This document shows positions 29,676 to 45,385 of a DNA stretch of 64,000 bases, piece after piece. The position numbers and the translations under genes were made by a program. This stretch comes from Archangium lipolyticum (GTDB lineage Bacteria > Myxococcota > Myxococcia > Myxococcales > Myxococcaceae). The notes beneath the pieces were generated by a model, which was given only the letters and a program-made list of their open reading frames with translations, ran no database searches and was not told the DNA's origin. The stretch spans positions 1 to 64,000 of the forward strand of contig NZ_JANKBZ010000012.1 in the NCBI RefSeq assembly GCF_024623785.1, given 5' to 3'. Position 1 is the first letter of the stretch, and each line of letters opens with the position of its first letter.

Positions 29676-30053
29676 ATGGATCCCACGACCAACCCCCTCG
29701 CCTCCTACCTGCCGCTGGCCATCGTGCTGCTGCTGGCGGGCGTGCTGGCGCTCGTCATCGTGCAGCTGGCCGCCATGCTAGGCCCCAGGCGTCCGAGCGC
29801 CATCAAGTCCACGGCCTTCGAGGCCGGTTCCGAGAGCAGCGGTCCCGCGCGCCAGCGCTTCGCGGTGAAGTTCTACGTGGTGGCCCTCCTCTTCATCGTG
29901 TTCGACGTCGAGGCGGTGTTCCTGTACCCCTGGGCGGTGAACTTCCAGGCACTCGGCTGGTTCGGCTACGTGGAGATGCTGGTTTTCGCGGCGACCCTCG
30001 TGGTGGGCCTTATCTATATCTGGAAGAAGGGTGCTCTCGAGTGGGAGCACTGA
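29676..30053 (+). CDS. nuoA: NADH-quinone oxidoreductase subunit A
   Basis: This 125-residue protein has three membrane helices (~10-33, 62-82, 92-113) and the conserved segment FAVKFYVVALLFIVFDVEAVF, including the acidic residues of the first cytoplasmic loop and second helix that link the quinone site to proton pumping. It is a membrane subunit of complex I. It begins the block at what looks like a leaderless start and is followed 9 bp later by nuoB. Confidence 0.96.
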   Translation: MDPTTNPLASYLPLAIVLLLAGVLALVIVQLAAMLGPRRPSAIKSTAFEAGSESSGPARQRFAVKFYVVALLFIVFDVEAVFLYPWAVNFQALGWFGYVEMLVFAATLVVGLIYIWKKGALEWEH

Positions 30054-30062
30054 GAAACGACC

Positions 30063-30620
<558 letters not shown>

Positions 30621-30648
30621 GCAGCCGCGCACCGCTGGTGCCGGCCCC

Positions 30649-30692
30649 GGGCCCCGCGAACCTCCTCGGAGGTGGCGGGGCCCTCGCCTTTT
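30649..30692 (+). terminator. Rho-independent terminator after nuoB
   Basis: GGGCCCCGC pairs with GCGGGGCCC around an inner ACCTCC/GGAGGT stem, followed by TCGCCTTTTC. It is the strongest hairpin seen in the window and lies inside the complex I locus. Confidence 0.88.
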
Positions 30693-30727
30693 CACCGGAT
30701 GTGCACCCACCCGAGCGACGTGCGAGG

Positions 30728-32047
30728 ATGCGCGCACACCCCCAACACGGCCGAGGCCGAGTGGACGAGTCCAGGCAGAGGCGCGCTTCGCTCCCAGAGT
30801 TCCTGCGGGAACCGGTGGGCAAGGCCATCGAGGCCGAACGGCGGCACAACGCCGTGCGTCTGGCGCTGGTGCGCCTGCTGGGTGTGTCCGCCATCCTGGT
30901 CATCTCCATCTATCAGGCGCGGGTGCAGGGCCTGGCGGACTGGGAGGTGTATCTCGCTCCCATGGCGGCCTACTGGCTGTGCACCGTGGCCACGCTGGTG
31001 GGCGTGCTGCGCTCGGCACACGTGGCGAGCTGGGCCGGGCTGTCCCTGGCGGTGGTGGATGCGCCGGCCATCTACTGGCTGCAGCACCTGGCCATCCCCG
31101 TCTCCCCTTCTCCCGGAGGCGTGGCCGGCTTCACCCTGGGTATCTACACCGCGCTCATCGTCATCTCGGCCCTGTCGCTGCGCCGCACGGTGACGTTCAC
31201 CGTGACGGGCGTGGCGGCCCTGGCCGAATGGTTCCTGCAGGCCGAGGCCTCCATCGGCGTGGGCGCGCGCCTGGTGGGGGCAGTGGTGCTGATGATGACG
31301 GCGGGCGCCGCCAACTACCTCTTCCACCGCATCCGCATGCTCGTCTCCGAGCTGACACACGAGGAACTCCAACGCGCCCAGCTCGGCCGCTACTTCTCCC
31401 CTGCGGTGGCCGAGCGCCTGCAGGACCTGGCCTCGCCGGTGTCCACCCCCGAGCTGCGCGAGGTGACGATCCTCTTCGCGGACCTGCGGGACTTCACCGC
31501 GTTCAGCGAGCGGCTCTCCCCCGAATCCGTGGTGGCCGTCCTCAACGAGTACTACGGCCGCATGGTGGAGGTGGTGTTCCGCCACGGCGGCACGCTCGAC
31601 AAGTTCATCGGAGACGCACTCATGGTGTACTTCGGCGCGCCCCTGCCCGAGCCGGAGCACGCCCGCCGGGCCGTGGAGTGCGCGCTGGAGATGATGCGCG
31701 AGCTGGAGGCGGTGAACGGCGAGCGGCTCGCCCGGGGAGAGCCCGGCCTGCGCATGGGGGTGGGCCTGCACACCGGCCGCGTGGTGCTCGGCAACATCGG
31801 CTCCACCGCCCGCCGCCTCGAGTACACCGCCATCGGCGACACGGTGAACCTGGCCAGCCGCATCGAGCAGCTCACCAAGCGGCTCGGGACGCCCGTGCTC
31901 GTCTCCCGCAGCACCCGGGATCAGGCCGGCGAGGACTTCCAGTGGCAGGAGCTTCCCCCCACCCCCGTGGCTGGCAAGCGCGAGCCCGTCTCCACCTTCA
32001 GCCCGCGGCCCTCCCCCGCTCGCGGAGGCTCCGGGGCGGCGGCCTGA
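30728..32047 (+). CDS. membrane adenylate/guanylate cyclase between nuoB and nuoC
   Basis: The start is uncertain: ATG 30728 or GTG 30761, giving 439 or 428 residues. About six hydrophobic segments (~50-210) form a membrane domain resembling MASE-type sensors. A short linker follows, and then a class III cyclase domain (~235-420). Catalytic residues are intact: metal Asp in ILFADLRDF, Lys/Asp in [10 protein letters not shown], and the transition-state Asn and Arg in [11 protein letters not shown]. The purine-specifying Lys suggests adenylate rather than guanylate. The C-terminal tail is Pro/Arg-rich. It sits where nuoB and nuoC are normally adjacent, with a terminator before it and a promoter for nuoC after it. 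Confidence 0.85.
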
Positions 32048-32113
32048 AATGCCCGTTCCGACCCACCGGGGCTTCTGCCTCGCGTAAGTAGCGGGGATGG
32101 TTGAGGGATTACG

Positions 32114-32143
32114 TTGACGCCCCCCGGGGGTCATCCTTATAAC
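32114..32143 (+). promoter_or_regulatory. sigma-70 promoter of nuoCDGHI
   Basis: TTGACG (32114-32119), an 18-bp spacer and TATAAC (32138-32143). It gives the second complex I block its own transcription start and shows that the TTG at 32114 is a -35 box and not the nuoC start codon. Confidence 0.7.
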
Positions 32144-32176
32144 GCGCCGGATTCCATAGCCAGCATTGGGGCCCCC

Positions 32177-32704
32177 TTGAGCACTTTCGCACTGGACAGG
32201 GTCACCGCCCAGTTCCCAGAGGCGGTGGCGGAGCGCTACCTCGACCGCACTGGCGGCGCCTGGGCCGTCATCCACGCCGAGCACCTGCCGAAGGTCGCCG
32301 CGTTCCTGAAGAACGACCTCGACTTCAAGCTCTTCACGTCGATCGACGCGGTGGACCGTCTCCACCTCGCGGAGAATGATCCGCGCTTCGAGGTCGTCTA
32401 CTTCATCTACTCGCTGTCGCGTCACGAGCACGTGCGCCTGAAGGTGCGCGTGAGCGAGGCCAACCCGGAGCTGCCCTCCATCACGCCCATCTTCAAGGGC
32501 GCCAACTGGTGGGAGCGCTTCGTCTGGGACTTCTACGGCATCCGCTTCACGGGACACCCGGACCTGCGCCGCGTGTTGCTGTACGAGGAGTTCCAGGGCC
32601 ACCCGCTCCGCAAGGACTACGCCCTGCGCGACCGTCAGCCGCTCATCCCCGAGCGGCCCATCAAGGACATCTTCCGCGGCCCCGGCACCAGCGGCGTCTC
32701 CTGA
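32177..32704 (+). CDS. nuoC: NADH-quinone oxidoreductase subunit C
   Basis: This 175-residue protein starts at a TTG (STFALDRVTAQFPEAV) that lies ~30 bp after the predicted transcription start; no ATG is available. The family hallmarks RFEVVYFIYSL, PSITPIFKGANWWERFVWDFYGIRF (shown in part) and HPDLRRVLLYEEF..HPLRKDY are present. NuoC is a peripheral-arm scaffold subunit binding NuoD. It is separate from NuoD here, unlike the NuoCD fusion of enterobacteria. nuoD follows after 36 bp. Confidence 0.93.
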   Translation: MSTFALDRVTAQFPEAVAERYLDRTGGAWAVIHAEHLPKVAAFLKNDLDFKLFTSIDAVDRLHLAENDPRFEVVYFIYSLSRHEHVRLKVRVSEANPELPSITPIFKGANWWERFVWDFYGIRFTGHPDLRRVLLYEEFQGHPLRKDYALRDRQPLIPERPIKDIFRGPGTSGVS

Positions 32705-32740
32705 TCGCCCGCCCTACCGGCAAGCCCCCCAGAGGACATC

Positions 32741-34006
32741 ATGGCGGACACCCACAAGCCCGCGTCACCCCCTGCCCCTGAAGCACCCAACCCGGACATC
32801 GACGCCTACGCCCACGAGGCGGAGCTGGAGGCCCACCTCCAGACCAAGCGGATGTACGTGAACATGGGCCCCTCGCACCCCGCCATGCACGGCACGGTGC
32901 GCATGAAGGTGGAGCTCGAGGGCGAGAACATCGCCGAGTCCGATTGTGAGATCGGCTTCCTCCACCGCGGCTTCCAGAAGAGCTGCGAGAACGTCACCTG
33001 GACCCAGTGCCTGCCGTACACGGACCGGTTGAACTACGTGTCCGCGATGATGAACAACTTCGGCTTCCTCAATGCCGTAGAGAAACTCATCGGCCTGGAG
33101 ATTCCGGAGCGCGCCCAGTACATCCGCGTCATCGGGTCCGAGCTGCACCGCATCCATGATCACCTGACGTGCGTGGGCGCCACGGGCATGGAGCTGGGCG
33201 GCTTCGCCCCGTTCCTCTTCGCCGTCGAGGCGCGCGAGCTCATCATGGACCGCGTCGCCGAGCTGACGGGCGCACGGCTCACCACCAACTTCGGCCGCAT
33301 CGGCGGAATGAACCGCGATCTGCCCGAGGGGTGGATCGAGAAGGTCCACAAGACGCTGGACAAGGTCATGGAGCTGGTCGCGGAGATCGACGGGCTGCTC
33401 ACGCGCAACCGCATCTTCGTGGACCGCACCAAGGACACGGGCGTCATCAGCGCCGAGGACGCCATCGACTACGGCTGGACGGGCCCCTGCCTGCGCGCCT
33501 GCGGCATCAACTACGACATCCGCAAGGCGAAGCCGTACTGGGTGTATGACCGCTTCGACTTCGACATCCCCATCGGTGAGAAGGGCGACAACTTCGATCG
33601 CTACCTGATGCGCATCGAGGAGATGAAGCAGTCGGAGCGGATCCTCCGCCAGGCGCTGAAGACGATCCCCGGTGGCCCCATCATCCTGGACGACTGGCGC
33701 ATCGCGCTGCCGCCCAAGCCCGAGGTGTACGGCACCATCGAGGGCGTCATCTCGCACTTCAAGCTGGTGATGGAGGGCATCCAGGTGCCCGCCGGCGAGG
33801 TCTACGACGCCACCGAGGCCGCCAACGGCGAGCTGGGTTGGTACATGGTGAGCGACGGCGGCGGCCGGCCGTACAAGGTCCACGTGCGCGCCCCGGGCTA
33901 CCCCATCCTGTCCGCCGTGCCCTACATCATCAAGGGCAAGATGCTGGCGGACCTCATTCCCACCTTTGACACGATCAACATGATCGGCGGCGAGGTCGAG
34001 CAGTGA
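32741..34006 (+). CDS. nuoD: NADH-quinone oxidoreductase subunit D
   Basis: This 421-residue protein is the 49-kDa quinone-site subunit. After a ~30-residue Pro/Glu-rich extension it shows MGPSHPAMHGT, with the HPAxHG motif near the quinone headgroup. IGFLHRGFQKSCE, YTDRLNYVSAMMNN and FGRIGGMNRDLPEGW follow, and the usual C-terminal DLIPTFDTINMIGGEVEQ. GGACATC..GAGGACATC provides the ribosome site. Its stop overlaps the nuoG GTG by four bases, so the two are coupled. Confidence 0.97.
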   Translation: MADTHKPASPPAPEAPNPDIDAYAHEAELEAHLQTKRMYVNMGPSHPAMHGTVRMKVELEGENIAESDCEIGFLHRGFQKSCENVTWTQCLPYTDRLNYVSAMMNNFGFLNAVEKLIGLEIPERAQYIRVIGSELHRIHDHLTCVGATGMELGGFAPFLFAVEARELIMDRVAELTGARLTTNFGRIGGMNRDLPEGWIEKVHKTLDKVMELVAEIDGLLTRNRIFVDRTKDTGVISAEDAIDYGWTGPCLRACGINYDIRKAKPYWVYDRFDFDIPIGEKGDNFDRYLMRIEEMKQSERILRQALKTIPGGPIILDDWRIALPPKPEVYGTIEGVISHFKLVMEGIQVPAGEVYDATEAANGELGWYMVSDGGGRPYKVHVRAPGYPILSAVPYIIKGKMLADLIPTFDTINMIGGEVEQ

Positions 34007-35868
34007 GCGACAACGACACCAAGAAGCCCACCGGAGACTCGCAGACGCCCCCCAAGGGCGCGCCCTCCGAGACCCGCGAGGCGCCCGGCTCCACGCCGAA
34101 GCACCCGCCCGCGGGCGCGAAGCTGGACACGCCTCCGGCCGCGCACAGCGCCCCCACGGCGCCTCCGCCGCCCCCGGCTCCCAAGCCGGCCGGCCCTCCC
34201 CCGCCGAAGAACCCGGGGTTCGTCACCTGCACCATCGACGGCAAGGAAGTCGTGGTGAAGCCGGGGACGAACATGATCGAGGCGGCCCGCATGGTCGGCT
34301 CGGACATCCCCTACTTCTGCTACCACCCGCGCCTGTCCATCGCGGCCAACTGCCGCATGTGCATGGTGGAGGCCTCCAACGCCCCCAAGCTGGTGCCCGC
34401 CTGCCAGACGCCGCTCGCCGAGGGTCAGGTCATCAAGACCACCACCCCCAAGGTGAAGGAGCAGCAGCGTGCCGTCATGGAGTTCCTGCTCCTCAACCAC
34501 CCGGTCGACTGCTCCATCTGCGACCAGGCCGGTGAGTGCAAGCTGCAGGACTACTACATGCGCTACGACTACCGCCCGTCGCGTCTCGAGGGCGGCAAGG
34601 CGCTGAAGAACAAGCGCAAGGTCCTGGGGCCCCGCGTGGTGCTGGACCAGGAGCGCTGCATCATCTGCAGCCGCTGCGTGCGCTTCATGAACGAGATTCC
34701 GAAGGAGCCGCAGCTCGGCATCTTCGGCCGTGGCAGCCACGAGGTCATCGACACCTTCCCGGGCAGCGAGCTCAACAGCAACTACTCGCTCAACACCGTG
34801 GACATCTGCCCCGTGGGCGCCCTGCTCAGCCGGGACTTCCGCTTCCGCGCTCGCTCGTGGTTCCTGTCCGCCGCTCCGTCCGTGTGCACCGGCTGCTCGC
34901 GCGGCTGCAACACCTACGCGGACTTCATGGGCCAGGACACCTACCGCTACCGCCCGCGCGAGAACGAGGCCGTCAACAAGAGCTGGATGTGCGACCACGG
35001 CCGCTCGACCTACAAGAACCTCAACACCAGCCGCGTGCTGAGCGCGGTGGTGGGCCGCCAGCAGGGCACCGGCACCGCCCGTCCGGAGGTCGCGCGCAAG
35101 GAGGCCATCAAGGCCGCCGCCAAGGCGCTCGCCGACGTGAAGGGCAAGGTCGCAGTGCTCGCCTCGCCCGTCGCCTCCAACGAGGACCTGCTCGCCTCGC
35201 TCACCTTCGCCAAGGTGTCGCTGGGCGCCAAGGAAGTGTTCGTCGGTGGCCGCCCGCAGGGTGAGGCCGACCACTACCTCCTCACGGCGGACCGCAACCC
35301 CAACCGCAAGGGCCTGGAGCTGATCGCCCAGGGCCTGGGGCTGGCGGTCAAGCCGTTCGACGAGCTGGTGAAGGGCATCGACGCGGGCCGGGTGAGGTCG
35401 CTCTACGCCGTGGGCACCGAGGTGCCGGTGGGCGAGGAGGCCTTCGCGCAGGCCGCGGCGAAGCTGGACGTCTTCGTGGCGCAGGCGATGAACGAGTCGC
35501 CCGTGACCGCGCAGGCCACCGTGCTGCTGCCGGCCGCCGTGCACGTGGAGCACGACGGTACCTTCGTGCAGGTGGACGGCCTCATCCAGCGCTTCCGCAA
35601 GGCCTACCCCTCCAAGGGTGACGCCGCGGCGCACTGGGCGCTGGCGGCGGAGCTCACCCGAGAGATGGGTGGCACCGCGGCCTGGACGTCCTCGCGCGAC
35701 GTGTTCCGCGAGCTGGGCAAGCAGGTCTCCGAGTTCGCCTCCTTCGACTGGGACAAGGCCTCGCCGCCTGACCGGGAGAAGCCGGGCATCAATCCGCTGC
35801 CGACCGCCGCCGACGGCAGGCCTCCTGGGTATCGTGAGTTCGGCGCTCCCAGGGTCCGGGGTCTCTGA
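34003..35868 (+). CDS. nuoG: NADH-quinone oxidoreductase subunit G
   Basis: This 621-residue protein starts with a GTG overlapping nuoD. A 70-residue Pro/Lys-rich extension precedes the ferredoxin domain, with 2Fe-2S ligands C106, C117, C120 and C134. HPVDCSICDQAGEC carries the His/Cys N5 ligands, and CIICSRCVRFMN plus VDICPVGALLS the N4 cluster. CTGCSRGCNTY begins the molybdopterin-like domain, which is short and lacks cofactor residues, as in most NuoG. It relays electrons from NuoF toward NuoI. The N-terminal extension is odd and probably disordered. Confidence 0.95.
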   Translation: MSDNDTKKPTGDSQTPPKGAPSETREAPGSTPKHPPAGAKLDTPPAAHSAPTAPPPPPAPKPAGPPPPKNPGFVTCTIDGKEVVVKPGTNMIEAARMVGSDIPYFCYHPRLSIAANCRMCMVEASNAPKLVPACQTPLAEGQVIKTTTPKVKEQQRAVMEFLLLNHPVDCSICDQAGECKLQDYYMRYDYRPSRLEGGKALKNKRKVLGPRVVLDQERCIICSRCVRFMNEIPKEPQLGIFGRGSHEVIDTFPGSELNSNYSLNTVDICPVGALLSRDFRFRARSWFLSAAPSVCTGCSRGCNTYADFMGQDTYRYRPRENEAVNKSWMCDHGRSTYKNLNTSRVLSAVVGRQQGTGTARPEVARKEAIKAAAKALADVKGKVAVLASPVASNEDLLASLTFAKVSLGAKEVFVGGRPQGEADHYLLTADRNPNRKGLELIAQGLGLAVKPFDELVKGIDAGRVRSLYAVGTEVPVGEEAFAQAAAKLDVFVAQAMNESPVTAQATVLLPAAVHVEHDGTFVQVDGLIQRFRKAYPSKGDAAAHWALAAELTREMGGTAAWTSSRDVFRELGKQVSEFASFDWDKASPPDREKPGINPLPTAADGRPPGYREFGAPRVRGL

Positions 35869-35870
35869 CA

Positions 35871-37367
35871 ATGAAGCGCGTCACTACCATCCTCTTCTGG
35901 TTTGGCGTCATGTTCGGCGCCTTCGCCGTGCACATGCTCCTGGCCTACGTGCTGGGCGGCGTGGTCGAGGGCGTCTTCCCGGGCGCCAGCCGGCTCACCA
36001 ACATGCTCATCCTGATGCTGGCCTTCGTCATGGGCACGGCATCCCTGCTCACGGTGGCCGAGCGCAAGTGGAGCTCGCTGATGCAGAACCGCATCGGCCC
36101 CAACCGCGCGCGCATCAACCTCCCGGGCTTGAAGGACAAGGCGCTGGTCGGCATCCCGCACTTCCTGGCCGACGGCGCGAAGATGCTCTTCAAGGAGGAC
36201 TTCATCCCGGCCACGGCCAACAAGCTCCTCTACAACCTGGGGCCCATGCTGGCCTTCGCGCCCGTGTTCGCCCTGTTCGCGGTGGTGCCCGCCGGCCCCA
36301 CGGTGAAGGTGTTCGACCGCACCGTCGACATGGTGGTGGCCACCCCGGACTTCGGCCTGCTCTACGTGTTCGCCATCGCCTCGCTGGCGGTGTACGGCAC
36401 GTCCCTGGCCGGCTGGTCCTCCAACAACAAGTTCGCCCTGCTCGGTGGCGTCCGCGCCGCCTCGCAGATGATCTCCTATGAGGTGGCGCTCGGCCTGTCG
36501 CTGGTGGGCCTGATGATGGCCTTCTCCACGGTGCAGCTGCCCGTCTTCGTGGGCAACGTCGCCAATGAGCTGGGCTCGGGTGCCGCCGCCAGCGGCCAGG
36601 CCGCCTACCTGTGGCGCTTCACTCCCGAGGGCTCCGCCTTCGACTTCGGCATCCCCGCGTGGGGCTTCCTGCTGCAGCCGCTGGGCTTCTTCCTCTTCTT
36701 CGCCGCCGCCTTCGCGGAGACCAAGCGCGCCCCCTTCGACACGCCCGAGGGTGAGTCGGAGATCATCGGTTACTTCGTCGAGTACTCGGGCATGAAGTTC
36801 GGCATGTTCATGATCTCCGAGTTCGTGGAGATCGTGGTCCTGTCCGGCCTCATCGTCGTCCTCTTCTTCGGCGGCTACCACCTGCCCTTCGGTGGCGAGT
36901 GGCTGTCCAACCTGGCGGTGATGAAGGAGTACGGGTGGCTGTACGGCGCCGTGCTCGGCACCGTGTTCTGGGCGAAGGTGATGTTCTTCGTGTGGCTGCA
37001 GCTGGCCATCCGCTGGACGTTCCTGCGCTTCCGCTACGACCAGATCCAGACCCTGGGCTGGAAGATCCTCCTGCCCGCGGGCCTCATCAACGTGTTCGCC
37101 ACGGGCGCGCTCGTGCTGTGGGATCCCTCCCTGCGGGCCCTGGCCCTCTTCGGCATCCTGCAGATCGGCGTCCTGGTGGCCCTGACGATGTCCTCCGCCA
37201 AGAAGGAAGAGGGCACCGAGGGCCATGGTCACGGCGGACACGGGGCCCACGGACACGGTCACGACGACGCTCATGGCCACGGCCTGCCCGCCCACGCGCA
37301 TGCCGCCCATGCCGCGGACTCCCATCCTGCCGGTGCGCACTCCGGTGCCACCGCGGCCTCGCACTAG
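35871..37367 (+). CDS. nuoH: NADH-quinone oxidoreductase subunit H with His-rich tail
   Basis: This 498-residue protein is much longer than the usual ~330-350. The membrane core has eight or more helices and the conserved quinone-tunnel blocks: VAERKWSSLMQNRIGPNRA, AETKRAPFDTPEGESEI and EYSGMKFGMFM. Extra length comes from an ~80-residue hydrophilic loop (ANELGSGAAASG region) and a C-terminal tail of ~55 residues rich in His, Gly, Ala and Asp (GHGHGGHGAHGHGHDDAHGHG). The tail may bind Ni, Zn or Cu, or be a linker. NuoH connects the quinone site with the proton-pumping arm. Confidence 0.95.
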   Translation: MKRVTTILFWFGVMFGAFAVHMLLAYVLGGVVEGVFPGASRLTNMLILMLAFVMGTASLLTVAERKWSSLMQNRIGPNRARINLPGLKDKALVGIPHFLADGAKMLFKEDFIPATANKLLYNLGPMLAFAPVFALFAVVPAGPTVKVFDRTVDMVVATPDFGLLYVFAIASLAVYGTSLAGWSSNNKFALLGGVRAASQMISYEVALGLSLVGLMMAFSTVQLPVFVGNVANELGSGAAASGQAAYLWRFTPEGSAFDFGIPAWGFLLQPLGFFLFFAAAFAETKRAPFDTPEGESEIIGYFVEYSGMKFGMFMISEFVEIVVLSGLIVVLFFGGYHLPFGGEWLSNLAVMKEYGWLYGAVLGTVFWAKVMFFVWLQLAIRWTFLRFRYDQIQTLGWKILLPAGLINVFATGALVLWDPSLRALALFGILQIGVLVALTMSSAKKEEGTEGHGHGGHGAHGHGHDDAHGHGLPAHAHAAHAADSHPAGAHSGATAASH

Positions 37368-37389
37368 TTCGAGCTGAGAGAAAGACACC

Positions 37390-38148
37390 ATGGCTTACAA
37401 GGCAACCCAGGATCCCCGCACCGACATCCGCGAGCGGTCCTACCTGCCCGAGCTGATCCGCGGTCTGGCCATCACCACCCGGCACTTCCTGCGCAACCTC
37501 TTCGGGACGCGGGAGGTGGGCACCCCGTTCGAGGATCGCAAGAGCACCAGCCTCATCACCACGGTGCAGTACCCCGAGGAGAAGATGCCGTACCCCGACG
37601 GGTACCGCGGTCTCCACCGGCTGGTACCGCGCGATGACGGCAAGCCGCGCTGCGTGGCGTGCTACATGTGCGCCACCATCTGCCCGGCCCAGTGCATCTA
37701 CATCGAGGCCGGTGAGTACGAGGTGGACTCGGCCGACGCGAGCTCGCGCGTCATCGAGAAGTACCCGACCCAGTTCGTCATCGACGAGCTGCGCTGCATC
37801 GTGTGCGGCCTGTGCGTGGACGCGTGCCCCAAGGACGCCATCCGCATGGACACGTACACGCACACTCCGGCGGAGTACAACCGGCAGGCCTTCGTCTACG
37901 ACATCCCCAAGCTGCTCAAGGGCCCGGCCGTCTCCCACCCGTCCGATCCGTGGAACAAGCGCACGAGCTCGGCCCGCCCGGAGCACACGCACAAGGAAGC
38001 CCACACCCGCATCGGCGAGGGCCACGAGGAGCACCACGGCCACGCGCAGCTCCCCGCGGGCCACGGCCACGGCGAGCACGCCGCCCCGGGCGGCCGCACC
38101 GTCGTCTCCAACGACGGCCCGGTGCCCGTGACGAAGTTCCTCAAGTAG
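37390..38148 (+). CDS. nuoI: NADH-quinone oxidoreductase subunit I with His-rich tail
   Basis: This 252-residue protein is longer than the usual ~165-180. It has two 4Fe-4S motifs, [15 protein letters not shown] (~84-98) and [15 protein letters not shown] (~137-151), for clusters N6a and N6b that hand electrons to NuoB. The last ~75 residues are His/Gly/Glu-rich ([20 protein letters not shown]), echoing the NuoH tail next door. It is the last gene of the block. nuoE, F and J-N are not in this window. Confidence 0.96.
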
Positions 38149-38760: not shown

Positions 38761-41349
38761 TCAGTTCCCCTCGAGCGCGAACACGCCGTCCCAGTCTTCT
38801 GGCGGTGCCGCCTGGGTGAACTTGCGGCAGCGCTCGGCGTACAGCCCCGCCACCGTGTCCTGGAACTCCTCCGCGCCCCGAGAGAAGAGCGCCAGCGCCT
38901 CGTCGAAGCGCCGCTGGTGGTACGCGATGAGCGCCTGCTCGTAGAGCGCGAGCTGCGCCTGCACCTGGGGGTTGATCTCCCCCTTGCGGCCCACCAGCTC
39001 GTGGATGCGGAGCGGCTCGGTACGGCCCTTCATGCGGAGCCGGTCCACCTCGCGGAAGACGTAGGCGTCCTGCGCGAGCCGCGCCACCGCGTCCCCCACC
39101 AGCACGAAGGAGCCGTACTCGCGATTGAGGCTCTCCAGGAACATGGACAGCTTCACGGACCCGCCCAGGACGGAGTACCGGGCCTCGAGGTCGCTTCCCA
39201 TGCCGCCCACCAGCACCTCGCCGCTGTCGATGCCGATGCGGCACCTCAGCGAGTGGCCATACGTCTTCTCCCAGTACGCCTGGCGCTCCTTCAGCACCGC
39301 GTTCACCTTCAGCGCCGCCTCGCAGGCGTGGTGCGCGTGGCGATCCGTGCGCACCGGCGCGCCCCAGAAGGCCATCACCGCGTCACCGATGTACTTGTCC
39401 ACCTGGCCGTGCGTGGAGCGCACCACGTCCGTCATCTCCGTCAGGTAGTCGTTGAGCAGCTGGATGATCCGCTCGGGAGGCAGCTGCCCGGACAGGCGCG
39501 AGAAGCCATCCAGGTCGCAGAAGAAGACCGTCACCTCGCGGCGCTCGGGCCGCGTCAGCACCCGCAGGTCGCGCGTGACGAACCGCGCCACCTCGGGGCT
39601 GACGTACCTGCCGAGCACGCCGGTGATGAATTGGCGCAGCTGCCGCTCGGTGCGCGAGGACTGGACGATGGTGAAGGCGAAGGTGAGCGCCATGGCCAGC
39701 AGCGGGGCCGCCATCGCCACCCAGAGCAACCGGGTGACGAACACGTACCAGGCCACCCCGGCGTAGAGCAGCCCCACCGCGCCCATGGCGAACAGGTACA
39801 CCATCACGTCGCCGAAGGAGCGCAGGCCTCGGTTGAAGGTGAGCGCGACGAAGGCTCCGATGAGCGCCAGCCCCAGCGTCAGGAGGAGGTCCAGCTTCGG
39901 CGTGGCGCGGGTGATGCCCTCGGATTGCAGCAGGTTCACCAGCGACTGGGCGAACACCGCTCCCGAGGGCGTGCGCTCGCCGATGGGCGTGTGCTGGAAG
40001 TTCATCCCCTGGCGCGTGGTGTCGGTGAAGACGATGAGCCGCCCCTCGATGTCGTGCACCGCCCGGGGTGGCACGCCCTCACGCACGGCGAAGAGGTTGA
40101 GCAACACGTTCCACGCGGGCAGCGCCCGGGACACCGAGCCGCGCGAGCCCCGCCCCACCTCGGCCGCGTCCCAACGCACCAGGCTGTACCCCGACTCATC
40201 CATGGGGATGGAGAACCGGTCTCCCACGTACAGCCGGCCGTCCGCGTAGCGGAGCTGGCGCGTGTTCGCCAGGCGCATCGCCGCCACCAGCGGCATCGAG
40301 GGCAGAACGTGCCGGGCCCCCTCACGAGAGCGGTAGCTCACCAGGTGCGGCACGGCCCGCACCACCCCGTCCGGATCCGCCGGCAGGGTGATGGAGCCGT
40401 AGAGACTCGCCGTGCCCAGCAGCGGCGCCACGGGGTGCTCCAGCTGACGCACCTCCGGCAGCAGCGCGGCGTCCAGCCCCTCCACCTGGACCTCCGCCAG
40501 GGACACGAAGAGCTCGAGTGGACCCACACGGAACGTGTCGTCCGTGGCCCTCCGCTCCTGAACCTTCGGTGGTTCGCGGAGGCCCTGCGCCAGGACCACC
40601 CGCAGGCCCTCCTGCTCGCTGGCCACGCCCGCCCACACCTCCACCGCGTTGCCCGCCGGGATGAGGAACGCCGGCCGCTGGTCCGCCAGCACCGCCTGCA
40701 CCCGGCCCCGTGCCTCGGCCGCACCGGCGAAGGTGCCGAGCCGCACACGGTACGGCCACAGCTTGCTGCCCGCGGGAATCTCCCGGTCCGGAGACCACGC
40801 GAAGGCCAGCACCGACTTCTCCGGGTTGCGGTCCAACAGCTTGCGGAAGGCGCGATCGTCGTCCAGTCCCTCCAGCCCGGGCGTGCCCTGCGCCAGGCAG
40901 GCGCGCGGGCTGAGCTCCGTGAAGGGGAAGTCGAGCATCACCAGCTCGGCGCCCTCGTCGAGGAGCCGGTTGGATAGACCCCCGAGGATCTCCCGGGGCC
41001 ACGGGTTGGAGGAGATGCCGGGGTGCTGATCCTGGCGGGCCTCGGCGAGCGTCTCGTCATCGAGCGCCACCACCACCACGCGATCCGAGCGCGAGGAGCG
41101 CGCGCCGAGCGAGCGGGCGCGCCAGTCGTAGGTGCCGCTTTCCCAGGACTCCACCCAGGCCGAGGGGCGGGCGAGCAGCGCGATGGGCGTGGCCTCCTCG
41201 GCGAGCCGCGAACGGGGGACCCGGTAGTAGACGAGCACCCCGAGAATGGCGCCGAAGAGCGTGGCCTGCAGCAGTGAGATGCCGAGCCGCTGCAGGAAGC
41301 GGAGACCGGCCGAGTAGATGGGAAGGCTTCGCACGGGAGCGGCCACCAT
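38761..41349 (-). CDS. CHASE2-domain cyclase homologue with altered catalytic residues
   Basis: This 862-residue protein starts from ATG 41349. One N-terminal membrane helix (~25-40) leads into a large extracytoplasmic CHASE2 domain (~45-480; DRVVVVALDDETLAE, LFVSLAEVQ and the typical GRLIVFTDTT end). Three membrane helices follow (~500-590) and then a class III cyclase domain (~630-800). Metal Asp residues are present (VFFCDLDGF, KYIGDAVMAF). The region that normally reads GDxVNLAxRLE is GGSVKLSMFLE, replacing the transition-state Asn with Lys and the Arg with Phe. Catalysis is doubtful, and it may be a receptor that pairs with another subunit. A short TPR-like C-terminus follows. Confidence 0.85.
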   Translation of the reverse strand: MVAAPVRSLPIYSAGLRFLQRLGISLLQATLFGAILGVLVYYRVPRSRLAEEATPIALLARPSAWVESWESGTYDWRARSLGARSSRSDRVVVVALDDETLAEARQDQHPGISSNPWPREILGGLSNRLLDEGAELVMLDFPFTELSPRACLAQGTPGLEGLDDDRAFRKLLDRNPEKSVLAFAWSPDREIPAGSKLWPYRVRLGTFAGAAEARGRVQAVLADQRPAFLIPAGNAVEVWAGVASEQEGLRVVLAQGLREPPKVQERRATDDTFRVGPLELFVSLAEVQVEGLDAALLPEVRQLEHPVAPLLGTASLYGSITLPADPDGVVRAVPHLVSYRSREGARHVLPSMPLVAAMRLANTRQLRYADGRLYVGDRFSIPMDESGYSLVRWDAAEVGRGSRGSVSRALPAWNVLLNLFAVREGVPPRAVHDIEGRLIVFTDTTRQGMNFQHTPIGERTPSGAVFAQSLVNLLQSEGITRATPKLDLLLTLGLALIGAFVALTFNRGLRSFGDVMVYLFAMGAVGLLYAGVAWYVFVTRLLWVAMAAPLLAMALTFAFTIVQSSRTERQLRQFITGVLGRYVSPEVARFVTRDLRVLTRPERREVTVFFCDLDGFSRLSGQLPPERIIQLLNDYLTEMTDVVRSTHGQVDKYIGDAVMAFWGAPVRTDRHAHHACEAALKVNAVLKERQAYWEKTYGHSLRCRIGIDSGEVLVGGMGSDLEARYSVLGGSVKLSMFLESLNREYGSFVLVGDAVARLAQDAYVFREVDRLRMKGRTEPLRIHELVGRKGEINPQVQAQLALYEQALIAYHQRRFDEALALFSRGAEEFQDTVAGLYAERCRKFTQAAPPEDWDGVFALEGN

Positions 41350-41428: not shown

Positions 41429-42307
41429 ATGAAACGCCTCGTCTTGTCCGCTGCCGCCACTGCTCTCCTGCTCTCCCCCCTTGCCTGCGACCTGGGCAAG
41501 ACGGGCAATCAAATCCTCGCCGAGAACGTGATGGTGGGGACCCTCTTCTCCACGCCGGACGTGAACGTCTCTGCGGCCGCCATGGCCGGGTACGACGCTG
41601 GCACGCTGCCCGACGGCGGCATCCCCGAAGGGGAGCGCATCACCATCCCAGGCCAGACGGCCGCCCTCGTCTTCTTCGGCACGCGCAACGGCGAGCAGGG
41701 CACCCCGCAGCCCCTGGCCAACGCCACCGTCCGGCTCGAGCCCCAGAATGGCAGTCCGCTGACCCTCGACAACAAGGGCGCGGGCACCTACGGCCAGACG
41801 AGTGACGTCCTCGGAGATGGCGGCATCAAGTACCAGTCCGGTGCCACCTACCGCTTCGTCGCCACGCAGGGCGGCAACTCGTACGTGGGCGTGGTGGAGG
41901 AGGCGCCGGCCCTGGAGCGCATCGCGAGGCTCCACCCGCCCGAGGGCTTCATCTCGCACACGGCCAACCAGGGCCTCACGTTGCAGCGGCCGCCGGTGGC
42001 CGGCAACCAGGCGCGTACGCTGGGCTTCGTCACCGTCGTCCCGCTGGGCGACAATGGCGAGAAGGGCCAGCCCACCTACACCAACGTGCCCAAGGAGCCG
42101 CTGGACTTCCTCGAGATCGTCCTGGCGCCCGTGGAGTGGCAGAAGGAATCCATCGTCATCCCGGGCAGCGCCTTCCCCAACCCGGAAAGCAACTACCTCG
42201 TCGTCTTCCAGACGGTGAAGACCGGCGGCCCCGAGTCGGAGAACCTCTTCGTCGGCAGCGCGCTGCTGGTGGGCACCGCCGACCTCGGCATGGTGCACAC
42301 GAAGTAG
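41429..42307 (+). CDS. lipoprotein of unknown function
   Basis: This 292-residue protein starts from ATG 41429. The signal peptide MKRLVLSAAATALLLSPLAC ends at a lipobox cysteine at residue 20. The mature part is beta-rich with three segments resembling Ig-like or carboxypeptidase-regulatory folds (ALVFFGTRNG, ATVRLEPQNG, TYRFVATQGGNSYVGVVEE). It ends with LLVGTADLGMVHTK. No catalytic motif is seen. It is divergent from the CHASE2 gene, with starts 79 bp apart. Confidence 0.75.
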   Translation: MKRLVLSAAATALLLSPLACDLGKTGNQILAENVMVGTLFSTPDVNVSAAAMAGYDAGTLPDGGIPEGERITIPGQTAALVFFGTRNGEQGTPQPLANATVRLEPQNGSPLTLDNKGAGTYGQTSDVLGDGGIKYQSGATYRFVATQGGNSYVGVVEEAPALERIARLHPPEGFISHTANQGLTLQRPPVAGNQARTLGFVTVVPLGDNGEKGQPTYTNVPKEPLDFLEIVLAPVEWQKESIVIPGSAFPNPESNYLVVFQTVKTGGPESENLFVGSALLVGTADLGMVHTK

Positions 42308-42310
42308 CGC

Positions 42311-43549
42311 TCACCCCGCTTCCACCTCGAGCTCGAGCCTGCCCTCGAGCTTGAGGCGCAGCAGGTGCCCCGCGAAGCGCTCGGACTCCTCGCGGGTGAG
42401 GACGTTGCGGAACCCCGGGCCCTCGGCCACCTCCACCTCCAGCACCGGCCCTCGCTGGAGGAGGCGGAAGAAGTCCTCGCCCCCCTCGGGGCGCGGCACG
42501 AAGACGGGCAGGAAGCCCTTCACGGGCAGCACCTCTCCCGGCGCGCGCACCCGGGCCATCAAGGCCGGGGCCTCCGGGCGCACCTCGTCCGGCGCGACGC
42601 CCTCCTCCGCGTACAGCGGCGCCGGTGGCAGCGACACGTCCTCGGTCGAGTCGTCGAAGAGGAAGCCGTGGCGCGAGGCGAGCCGGCCAGCGAAGAGGAA
42701 CAGCAGGAGCACCGGCTCATCGCCCCCCACGCGCTCCAGGTGGAGGATGGCGCGCGTGGCCCCCACCTTGCGCAGCAGCAATCGGAGATGGGGAGGCGCC
42801 GCGGCCAGGTAACGCCGCACCCTGTCCTGTAGGGTGGCGCGAATCTCCTCGAAAGCGGCCTGGTACCGCGCCTCGCTCTCGGCCTCGTCCTTCGCGAGCG
42901 CCTCGCGTGCCCGCGCCAGCTTCTCCTCGGCCTGGCGCAGGAAGTCCCGCATGGGCCCCTGCCCGGAGACGAGCGCCGGCTCCGCGGGGACCGGCCCTTC
43001 CGAAGCCGCCCGCTCCTCGCTCGCCGCGCGCACCGCCCCCACCAGGAAGGAGCCCTGCTGCTCCAGCCGCTCGCGCTCCTCCCGGAAGCGCAGCCGCGCC
43101 GCGCCGTGCGCCAGCCGCAGCTCGAGCCACGCGTCGTAGCCGACCTCCAGCGTCTCCACGCTCCGCACCCGGGCCAGGGCCCCACGCGTCACGGACTCGG
43201 CGGCGGCACCGGGCGAAGCGGGCTCCGGGGGCGCTTCCTTCTTCGTGGCGGTGCCCACCACGGGAGTGTCGCGCGGCGTATCCCGGCGCAAGAGCGCGGG
43301 GACCCGCCAGGGAGGAGCCACGGTGGGAAGCGCTCGCGAGCTCTCACGCCCCACCCGCCTCGATGGACCGGGCGACTCCTCCACGACGGGCACGTCACGC
43401 GGAGTGTCGCGCCGCGCTGGCGAGTCCCTCCGCCCCGGCGCGGCACGTCCCCGGGCCGGTGACTCCGCCTTCCCCTCCGCACCGGAAGGGCCCTTCCGCG
43501 TCGTCCGGCTACCGCCCCTGGCCGGCTTGCGCTCCTTCCTCGATGTCAC
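42311..43549 (-). CDS. hypothetical protein with basic repetitive N-terminus
   Basis: In this 412-residue protein, residues 1-~120 are Arg/Pro/Ser-rich and contain the near-repeat RRDTPRD(V/T)PVV twice, probably disordered. From ~125 an ordered portion starts (ARVRSVETLEVGYDAWLELRL), with a long charged helix around 200-240 (EEKLARAREALAKDEAESEARYQ as its core, listed here only in part). It ends in a beta domain (LLLLFLFAGRLASRHGFLF, FFRLLQRGPVLEVEVAEG). No known family is recognised. It converges on the lipoprotein gene with 3 bp between stops. Confidence 0.65.
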   Translation of the reverse strand: MTSRKERKPARGGSRTTRKGPSGAEGKAESPARGRAAPGRRDSPARRDTPRDVPVVEESPGPSRRVGRESSRALPTVAPPWRVPALLRRDTPRDTPVVGTATKKEAPPEPASPGAAAESVTRGALARVRSVETLEVGYDAWLELRLAHGAARLRFREERERLEQQGSFLVGAVRAASEERAASEGPVPAEPALVSGQGPMRDFLRQAEEKLARAREALAKDEAESEARYQAAFEEIRATLQDRVRRYLAAAPPHLRLLLRKVGATRAILHLERVGGDEPVLLLFLFAGRLASRHGFLFDDSTEDVSLPPAPLYAEEGVAPDEVRPEAPALMARVRAPGEVLPVKGFLPVFVPRPEGGEDFFRLLQRGPVLEVEVAEGPGFRNVLTREESERFAGHLLRLKLEGRLELEVEAG

Positions 43550-43668
43550 GCCACGCGCTCCTGCATGTCCGGGAGTCTACCGCCCCGAAAATCGAAGGGG
43601 CGACCCGGAGTGACCGGATCGCCCCCACGAGGGCCGCCCGGGGAACCCGGACGGAGGGAATCAGACGC

Positions 43669-43938
43669 TCAGGCGCCGCGAGCCACGGGCTCGGGACGCT
43701 GCTGGCCGTTGGACTGGGCGTCCTGGCCATTCTGGAGCCGGCTGCGCAGGTCATCGCGCAGCTGGGCACCGGGCTTGGGCGCCATCAGCAGGCCCAGGCC
43801 CGCGCCCACCAACAGGCCCACGGAGAACGCCCCGAGCGCGGGCAGCATCCAGTCCGTCGGCCCCTTCTTGGTCTCCAGGCCGATCAGGTCGAGCACGTCG
43901 TCCTTGTCCATCTTCTTCAGGTCGTTGATGCTGAACAT
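43669..43938 (-). CDS. YtxH-like small membrane protein
   Basis: This 89-residue protein opens MFSINDLKKMDKDDVLDLIGL, and a single membrane helix (ALGAFSVGLLVGAGLGLLMAP, ~33-53) is followed by KPGAQLRDDLRSRLQ. That GxxxGxxxxP-x-x-G-x-x-L/T-R pattern is the YtxH signature, found in general-stress membrane proteins. The tail is Gln/Asn-rich. It is the last of the small-membrane-protein cluster. Confidence 0.75.
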   Translation of the reverse strand: MFSINDLKKMDKDDVLDLIGLETKKGPTDWMLPALGAFSVGLLVGAGLGLLMAPKPGAQLRDDLRSRLQNGQDAQSNGQQRPEPVARGA

Positions 43939-43978
43939 CGCGGGCGCTCCATGTGAGACGGTTGGAAGGAAGAGTCAA

Positions 43979-44419
43979 TCACACCTGGGGCCCGCGCGGG
44001 CCACTGGTTCCACCCGTGGAGCCACCCTCGGAGCCCGTCATGCCGGACATGCCTCGGGCCCCCACCTCGACACCGCGCATCGCCGCCTCGGCCATGCCGA
44101 GGAGCTCGTCCTTGACGAGGGGCAGCGCCGCCAGGCGCATGCCCAGGCGGATGACGCGCCCGGTGGTGCGGGTGAAGAGCCCGCCGCCGAGCACGTAGCC
44201 CACGCCGAAGGCCGCGGCCAGCATCAGGTACGGGTTGCGATCCACGCGGCCCTTGAGGTCCATCGTGTCGCGCAGGTCCGTCACCGCGCCGCGGGCATCG
44301 TCCCACAGTTGTTGCGCGTCCGAGCCGATCCGGTCCACCCGCTGGCCGAAGCCGCCCTGATCCTGATCGCCCTGCGCCTGGCCGGTGCCATTGCCCGGAT
44401 TGCTCTGGAAGGTCGCCAT
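43979..44419 (-). CDS. small membrane-associated hypothetical protein
   Basis: This 146-residue protein has a Gln/Gly-rich start, a helix with DDARGAVTDLRDTMDL, then NPYLMLAAAFGVGYVLGGGLFTR, a Gly-zipper membrane helix of the DUF883/YtxH kind, a second hydrophobic stretch and a Gly/Ser-rich tail. It is fourth in the minus-strand cluster of small envelope proteins, spaced 37 bp from its upstream neighbour. Confidence 0.65.
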   Translation of the reverse strand: MATFQSNPGNGTGQAQGDQDQGGFGQRVDRIGSDAQQLWDDARGAVTDLRDTMDLKGRVDRNPYLMLAAAFGVGYVLGGGLFTRTTGRVIRLGMRLAALPLVKDELLGMAEAAMRGVEVGARGMSGMTGSEGGSTGGTSGPRGPQV

Positions 44420-44456
44420 ATCAGTACTCCGAATCTTCGAGGAAACGGTGACGCGC

Positions 44457-44657
44457 TCAGCGGCGCGACGCGATGCGCCCGACGATGAACCCCACGGCCA
44501 CGGCGCCCAGCAGACAGGTGCCCGGGTTGGCGCGGATGAAGCTCACCACGCGGGTGTTGAGATCCTCCAGGTTGCGCCGCGCCTCCTCCAACTGCGGCAC
44601 CATGTTCTCCTGGAACTGACGGGCCTTGTCCTGCAGGTGCTGCGGATTGACGTCCAT
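44457..44657 (-). CDS. DUF883-like (ElaB type) small tail-anchored protein
   Basis: ATG 44657 is chosen because AGAGGA lies eight bases before it, giving 66 residues; the ATG nine bases earlier is too close to the site. A charged amphipathic helix (LQDKARQFQENMVPQLEEAR) leads to a C-terminal anchor PGTCLLGAVAVGFIVGRIASRR. This is the layout of ElaB/YqjD proteins, inner-membrane anchors that bind ribosomes in stationary phase. Confidence 0.65.
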   Translation of the reverse strand: MDVNPQHLQDKARQFQENMVPQLEEARRNLEDLNTRVVSFIRANPGTCLLGAVAVGFIVGRIASRR

Positions 44658-44706
44658 GGAAGTCATCCTCTTTCGGGGTTGAAGGGTGGAACGAAGGTGT
44701 GGCGTC

Positions 44707-44928
44707 TCAGCGCCTTTGGCTATTGCCGATGAGGAATCCGATGAAGAAAGCCGCCCCCACGCAGGCCAGGGGCCGTTGGCGCACCCACTCGCGCCAGTCC
44801 GCGCGCCGCGCCACCTCCTCGCGCAGCTCGCTGACGGAGAGGGCGAGCTCGGCGCGGGTGCGTGCGATCTCCGCGCGGATCTGCTCGGGCGTCTGGGGAG
44901 AAACCCTCACCTTGCCGTCAGCGGCCAT
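44707..44928 (-). CDS. DUF3618-type small membrane protein
   Basis: This 73-residue protein contains QTPEQIRAEIARTRAELALS, the TPEQIRxEIExTRxEL signature of DUF3618, then a C-terminal helix RPLACVGAAFFIGFLIGNS. Its ATG lies inside the end of the holin-X gene (11-bp overlap) behind CAGGAG, so translation is coupled. DUF3618 is commonly found beside holin-X and YtxH-like genes in soil bacteria. Confidence 0.8.
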   Translation of the reverse strand: MAADGKVRVSPQTPEQIRAEIARTRAELALSVSELREEVARRADWREWVRQRPLACVGAAFFIGFLIGNSQRR

Positions 44929-45385
44929 GGGAGGACTCCTGGGGAAGCGCCGCGGACTGGGGCTGAGGCGCTGGCACCTGGGCGAGCACCGCCACGCTGC
45001 GGTTGAGCTCCTCGGTGGTGTTGTCCATGAGCCGGAAGGACTTGAGCCGTGTGGCGGCCCGGGCGATCCCCAACCCACCTCCCACGAGGTTGGCCACCCC
45101 CACCAGCGCGAGCGCCCCGGTCCAGCCGAGCCACCGCGCCAACAAGGCGGACAGCGCCCCGCAGACGAAGAAGTAGCCCACCAACACGAAGGGCACGAAG
45201 GCGGCGATGCGCGCCACGTCCGAGCCCATGAGGCGCGCGTCGTCCATCAGCTCCACGCGCGCCAGTGTCAGGTGCTGCGTCACCAGTTTGCTGAAAACAT
45301 CCGTCAGCCGTCCGACGAGCACGGCAAGTCCGCGCTCCGTCTGTTCGGTGCCCAAGCCCATCTGCTCCCCGGCCGTCGCTCTCAT
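44918..45385 (-). CDS. phage-holin-family / holin-X-like membrane protein
   Basis: In this 155-residue protein an N-terminal amphipathic helix (LVGRLTDVFSKLVTQHLTLARVEL) is followed by two membrane helices (AAFVPFVLVGYFFVCGALSALLA and ALALVGVANLVGGGLG) and a charged tail. This matches the Actinobacterial holin-X / DUF1469 group, which despite the name is chromosomal and linked to envelope stress. It is first gene of the cluster 45385-43669, with a 26-bp inverted repeat just upstream. Confidence 0.75.
   Translation of the reverse strand: MRATAGEQMGLGTEQTERGLAVLVGRLTDVFSKLVTQHLTLARVELMDDARLMGSDVARIAAFVPFVLVGYFFVCGALSALLARWLGWTGALALVGVANLVGGGLGIARAATRLKSFRLMDNTTEELNRSVAVLAQVPAPQPQSAALPQESSHGR

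Follow-up and report, generated by a model that had tools for sequence, protein, structure and literature searches.

A near-universal CHASE2 protein of a bacterial family with a class III cyclase domain that is catalytically incomplete in most orthologs

Results

Within the window, the whole 64,000-nucleotide stretch of Archangium lipolyticum DNA that was analyzed, a gene for a protein combining a CHASE2 domain with a class III cyclase domain (hereafter PCYC) lies between the end of a nuo operon and a gene for a putative lipoprotein (Table 1). The PCYC reading frame is open from the ATG at 41349 to 38761 on the minus strand. The PF05226 profile matched with 97.3 bits at the genome level and 95.5 bits at the protein level (cut-off 26.3), so that PCYC carries the domain by which CHASE2 receptors are recognized, and PF00211 matched the protein with 74 bits against a cut-off of 21.9.

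Table 1 Features of the PCYC locus, in window coordinates
Feature	Position	Strand	Basis or remark
PCYC, CHASE2 and class III cyclase-domain protein, 862 aa	38761..41349	-	ORF and Pfam
N-terminal membrane helix region, aa 10-41	41227..41322	-	Predicted helix H10-41; putative membrane assignment, from hydrophobicity
CHASE2 domain, aa 59-498	39856..41175	-	PF05226
Helices aa 484-504, 512-540 and 547-579	39613..39900	-	Predicted model; probable membrane-spanning and linker segments ahead of the cyclase domain
Class III cyclase domain, aa 603-778, with D612, K652 and D656	39016..39543	-	PF00211 (Guanylate_cyc)
GGSVKLSMFLE, aa 729-739, with K733 for the catalytic Asn and F737 for the catalytic Arg	39133..39165	-	
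C-terminal helical tail, aa 791-862, with PEDWDGV motif	38764..38979	-	Motif common to canonical relatives
nuoA, B, C, D, G, H, I	29676..38148	+	NuoA and NuoB by Pfam; other names by reading
Canonical membrane class III cyclase (DKDTNR) between nuoB and nuoC	30728..32047	+	
Putative lipoprotein, divergent, starting 79 bp from the PCYC start	41429..42307	+	Lipobox by eye

An AlphaFold2 model of PCYC, built on a 39-row alignment, had a mean pLDDT of 83.6, and its cyclase domain superposed on the solved folds of CyaB (3r5g, TM 0.89) and CyaC (1wc1, TM 0.86), with TM scores normalized by target length. The domain is thus predicted to adopt the class III cyclase fold, and by both profile score and fold PCYC belongs among the class III nucleotide cyclase domain proteins. 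In the tail, P850, D852, W853, G855 and V856 are invariant across the 39 aligned rows, and the canonical relatives found in this analysis share the C-terminal DWDGV motif with PCYC.

The convergent arrangement of nuoI and PCYC at the end of the nuo operon recurs in 59 of 80 ortholog loci; nuoI is missing beside PCYC in 18 loci that have room for it, and the remaining three have no room. The adjacent lipoprotein, for which no Pfam match was found, is divergent to PCYC in 68 of the 80 loci (not found in nine, no room in three). We regard it as a candidate accessory protein of PCYC, by analogy with the CHASE2 cyclases of S. meliloti, in which, according to the accessible part of PMC13001267, cAMP synthesis rises when a plant ribosomal protein is sensed via the outer-membrane protein NsrA. 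Further upstream, positions 42311-45385 hold a Holin-X-like protein (PF07332), a DUF3618 ORF and two proteins for which Pfam gave no trusted match. In most loci, this block and the lipoprotein accompany PCYC, with the three upstream genes probed found in 55, 64 and 66 of the 80, and the block also adjoins PCYC in several genomes that have no nuo genes nearby.

The motif region of PCYC reads YSVLGGSVKLSMFLE. When PCYC was aligned with CyaB of P. aeruginosa and CyaC of Spirulina, the six catalytic sites fell on D612, K652, D656, S726, K733 and F737, and the spacing of these residues equals that of D256, K296, D300, D365, N372 and R376, which the accessible part of PMC4174876 gives as the catalytic residues of Rv1625c. 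Both metal-binding Asp residues of an active cyclase, D612 and D656, are therefore present. At the purine site, K652 is kept and Ser726 stands where Thr or Asp is expected; Ser is also found there in 16 relatives with an otherwise full set of residues. Of the two transition-state residues of active class III cyclases, neither is present: K733 takes the place of the Asn and F737 that of the Arg. The alignment and the spacing thus bear out two claims of the sequence-only reading, namely that Lys and Phe replace the catalytic Asn and Arg and that both metal Asps are kept. The Asp of 'GDxVN' in the motif given by that reading (G730 in PCYC) is, however, not a catalytic position, since CyaC has GPSVN and CyaB has GREVN at this point, and the Rv1625c spacing likewise rules the residue out. 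A sequencing error as the source of K733 and F737 can also be dismissed, because Lys is found at 733 in all 11 members of the window's clade, together with Phe (seven genomes) or Tyr (four) at 737.

Orthologs of PCYC, defined as matches at E <= 1e-90 in genomes of the family, were found in 94 of the 96 family genomes, one per genome except for two split copies. They occur even in family genomes of 2.1-2.7 Mb, and there was no internal stop among the matches listed. The cyclase domain was read in 86 of the 94 orthologs, 80 from fetched regions and six from partial or split copies (G063, G007, G029, G013, G023 and G066, where the other piece of the G066 copy, L262, gave no cyclase domain), and eight (G059, G068, G070, G073, G074, G079, G098 and G111) were left out of the reading. 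The gene in G013 is split across two adjacent frames, possibly by an assembly error.

Only five of the 86 orthologs keep all six catalytic residues, while at least one is missing in 81, and none of the six partial or split copies is complete. The Asp pair is intact but the Asn/Arg pair is broken in 74 of the 86, PCYC itself having this C1-type combination of a kept metal half and a lost Asn/Arg half; Asn and Arg are intact but the first metal Asp is lost in four, and neither pair is strictly intact in three, so that at least one half of the site is strictly intact in 83. Among the 80 orthologs from fetched regions, only the Asn is lost, with Arg and the metal residues kept, in 51 (DKDTGR in 32, DKDTAR in 15, DKDTSR in 2, DKDTRR and DKDSAR in 1 each); the other six-site codes are DKDSKF (7), DKDTNR (5), DKDSKY (4), AKDTNR (4), DKDTGW (3) and D-DTAR (2), and six codes, DKDTRR and DKDSAR included, are singletons. 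Lineages differ in which catalytic residues are missing and in what replaces them, with K, G, A, S, T or R at position 733 and F, Y, W or K at position 737. Sequence-weighted conservation, calculated for 71 orthologs whose Asn/Arg pair is broken, is 97% for D612, 92% for D656 (the rest being Glu), 89% for K652, 70% for the Arg and 0% for the Asn. No catalytic residues of the PCYC orthologs are better kept than the two metal-binding Asps.

Two further observations concern individual positions and genomes. Arg704 of PCYC (window positions 39238-39240) is invariant in all 71 of these broken-pair orthologs, and of 75 other relatives, 44 have Gly and 30 have Arg at the corresponding position. In the 2.1-2.7 Mb genomes G024, G113 and G114, PCYC (L244-L246) departs from the canonical residues in both halves of its site (DKETAK-like); each of these genomes has three cyclase matches.

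The same 75 relatives (L092-L166, a few of them paralogs within the same family) served as controls. Asn and Arg are kept in 74 of them and all six residues in 69; the 75th (L127) has no alignable domain. A further comparison is offered by a second CHASE2-cyclase of the same architecture as PCYC, paralog B (G000:C5:523738-526302 in the window genome), which is present in 88 of the 96 family genomes. In the 21 of these 88 genomes in which its residues were read, the metal residues, Asn and Arg are always kept, and all six sites are complete in 20. The 12.6-Mb window genome contains 25 PF00211 matches and two CHASE2 matches. When its cyclase loci were scored with our own profile, 13 of the 25 exceeded 80 bits, and 11 of these 13 keep Asn and Arg, the two exceptions being PCYC and L015; the lower-scoring loci include several incomplete or divergent domains.

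L015 (G000:C6:128021-128521) and L293 (G012:C8:117521-118027), whose six sites read EAETHW and EEDASR, respectively, may constitute a second degenerate cyclase family. Tandem cyclase domains within one long frame were seen at L018/L021 (G000:C38:12447-13580) and L017/L023 (G000:C9:206377-207525), an arrangement that we take to resemble soluble adenylyl cyclase. At L018/L021, one domain reads DRDLLR, with the metal residues kept and the Asn lost as in PCYC, and the other keeps Asn and Arg, these sites having been read from low-scoring alignments of 52-59 bits; unlike in PCYC, both domains belong to one 1419-aa frame, in which there is no CHASE2 match.

In a quick tree of 111 rows, for which the program warned of long rows and of long branches that meet, the 86 orthologs formed one clade (SH-aLRT 99). 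The fewest changes needed for the presence of the Asn over the whole tree are six, one of them on L247, a distant relative from another family (G036) in which the Asn is also missing and which, lying outside the orthogroup, was excluded from the ortholog counts. For the presence of all six residues, the fewest changes are seven, outgroup rows included. The change count alone is silent on direction; repeated loss of catalytic residues is likely, because nearly all outgroup rows are canonical.

Another important question is whether the gene is still maintained. Over 20 chosen pairs, dN/dS was 0.030-0.326 for the cyclase domain, much like the 0.042-0.254 of the CHASE2 domain, and it was higher in the tail (aa 791-861), reaching 1.2 where dS = 0.02. 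By this measure, the cyclase domain is under purifying selection and not simply decaying. Its mean identity to the window genome is 56%, versus 75% for paralog B in the same 19 genomes, and this greater divergence shows the constraint to be looser than on a working cyclase, leaving room for slow decay, yet far from absent. A decaying gene without function, to which the greater divergence and the split G013 copy could point, is scarcely credible and can be discarded in view of the 94/96 presence (small genomes included), the lack of internal stops among the matches listed, dN/dS values well below 1 and the conserved neighbors.

The canonical cyclase at 30728 is intact, as the sequence-only reading had stated, with six sites reading DKDTNR. 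It lies in the fetched stretch of 46 of the 56 PCYC loci that include nuoC. Whole-genome searches of the other ten genomes revealed a 65-66% identical copy in G084 and G085, just beyond the fetched stretch, and in G018, elsewhere in the genome; G027 and G100 have only a 48-49% relative, and the whole genomes G004, G012, G025, G108 and G109 gave no match at 1e-60. Thus, at least seven of the 56 genomes with PCYC beside nuo have no close copy, and in six of the seven the PCYC sites are degenerate; G004 belongs to the same genus as the window genome and carries the same Lys/Phe signature. The location of a canonical cyclase inside the nuo operon may connect cAMP with complex I.

Discussion

PCYC poses a question: what is the role of a cyclase domain that is unable to cyclise? 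Pseudo-enzymes are well described for other signaling folds, and we consider it likely that PCYC is a membrane receptor with a pseudo-cyclase domain, which would make no cAMP as a homodimer and would act through a partner. In such a scheme, the CHASE2 domain would sense a signal outside the inner membrane, the signal would pass via the membrane helices to the cyclase domain, and that domain, no longer making cAMP as a homodimer, would probably still bind Mg-nucleotide and act by protein contact. PCYC would pair with and tune a canonical cyclase, most plausibly paralog B, or another partner. PCYC probably transmits its signal without producing the messenger by itself, because key catalytic residues are gone and similar losses are seen in most of its orthologs. 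The suggestion of a pseudo-cyclase receptor, already made from the bare sequence, is strengthened by the 81 of 86 orthologs that lack at least one catalytic residue and by the purifying selection acting on the domain. Retention of the metal residues fits either Mg-nucleotide binding or the contribution of a metal half to a partner.

The last option leads to the second suggestion made from the bare sequence, that PCYC is one half of a heterodimer, which is conceivable, given that most orthologs keep the metal half. Here, PCYC would give the metal (C1-like) half of the active site and a canonical cyclase, with paralog B as the best candidate, would give the Lys, Thr, Asn and Arg. We hold this explanation to be less likely than the pseudo-cyclase receptor. 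It accounts for the metal Asps being kept while the Asn/Arg pair is missing in 74 of the 86 orthologs, and for the four orthologs that lack the first metal Asp keeping Asn and Arg, so that one half or the other survives nearly throughout. Paralog B is also suited to the part by its shared architecture, its canonical sites in 20 of the 21 genomes read and its presence in most of the family, and there is a precedent in mammalian cyclases, where, in the accessible text of PMC4174876, C1 gives the metal Asps and the other domain the transition-state residues.

Several findings weigh against such a half-site arrangement. A dedicated partner that always co-occurs with PCYC was not found: the 30728 cyclase lacks a close copy in seven of the 56 genomes, and for paralog B, seven of the 94 PCYC genomes gave no match at 1e-90. 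These include G001, G010 (90% complete), G025 and G117 (85% complete). They also include G024, G113 and G114, the clade in which both pairs are altered; although a joint loss would favor pairing with B, the coincidence of B absence with breakage of both halves is confined to this one clade and therefore proves nothing. The retained halves are also not clean, because the Lys of the later KG motif, which presumably binds phosphate, is lost in the four orthologs that keep only Asn and Arg and even in three of the five complete ones. Furthermore, in the window genome PCYC and B are on separate contigs, and in G003 1.8 Mb lie between them. That the two separate CHASE2 proteins, canonical B and metal-half PCYC, form a regulated heterodimeric adenylyl cyclase is, on this record, unlikely.

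A different possibility is that PCYC is still an active, non-canonical cyclase, in which Lys733 and Phe737, or the Gly and Ala variants of other orthologs, act slowly or by another geometry. The metal Asps, Lys652 and Ser726 are kept, the domain is under purifying selection, and some mycobacterial cyclases with odd active sites are active. Both transition-state residues were, however, lost together in this genus, and the replacements at 733 and 737 differ between lineages, unlike what a new conserved mechanism would show, so that we judge this explanation to be improbable for PCYC. For its orthologs, a distinction is necessary: weak activity is conceivable in the 51 of 80 in which the Asn alone is gone while Arg and the metal residues remain, and some may be true cyclases, because five of the 86 keep all six.

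Pairing specifically with the 30728 cyclase, the partner proposed by the sequence-only reading, is very improbable. The two genes lie ~ 7 kb apart, flanking nuoC-nuoI, the 30728 gene is canonical, and 46 of the 56 nuoC-containing loci hold it, with a copy in three more genomes. Nevertheless, G004, G012, G025, G027, G100, G108 and G109 have no match above 49% identity at 1e-60, the 30728 protein has a different membrane part with no CHASE2 match, it is encoded in the nuo operon on the strand opposite to PCYC, and PCYC is not beside nuoI in the 18 loci mentioned above. With at least seven of 56 genomes lacking a close copy, the 30728 cyclase is not an obligate partner of PCYC, and paralog B is the better candidate for the partner of a pseudo-cyclase receptor.

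Among known systems, the canonical CHASE2 adenylyl cyclases, such as CyaD1, CyaD2 and CyaK of S. meliloti, likewise combine CHASE2 with a class III cyclase domain, a likeness drawn from their description; they make cAMP, whereas PCYC is without the Asn and Arg. Paralog B shares the architecture of PCYC but differs from it in its complete sites. Mammalian C1 matches PCYC in the residues kept and missing; C1 and C2, however, lie on one chain, while PCYC has a single cyclase domain and its C2-like partner is a candidate only.

Conclusions

In titles and the opening parts of abstracts on CHASE2, myxobacterial, inactive or heterodimeric cyclases, we found no literature description of this gene family. 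What is new, as judged from the genomes compared, is that the gene is near-universal in the family, yet its catalytic residues are incomplete in most orthologs. A class III cyclase kept family-wide despite missing catalytic residues in several lineages is a natural experiment, and comparison of the five six-site-complete orthologs with the others makes it possible to test directly if cAMP has ever been the output. PCYC also bears on whether bacteria use heterodimeric cyclases encoded by separate genes: if they do so here, PCYC and paralog B would be the equivalent, split over two genes, of the animal C1/C2 enzyme and would belong to the core of an entire bacterial family.
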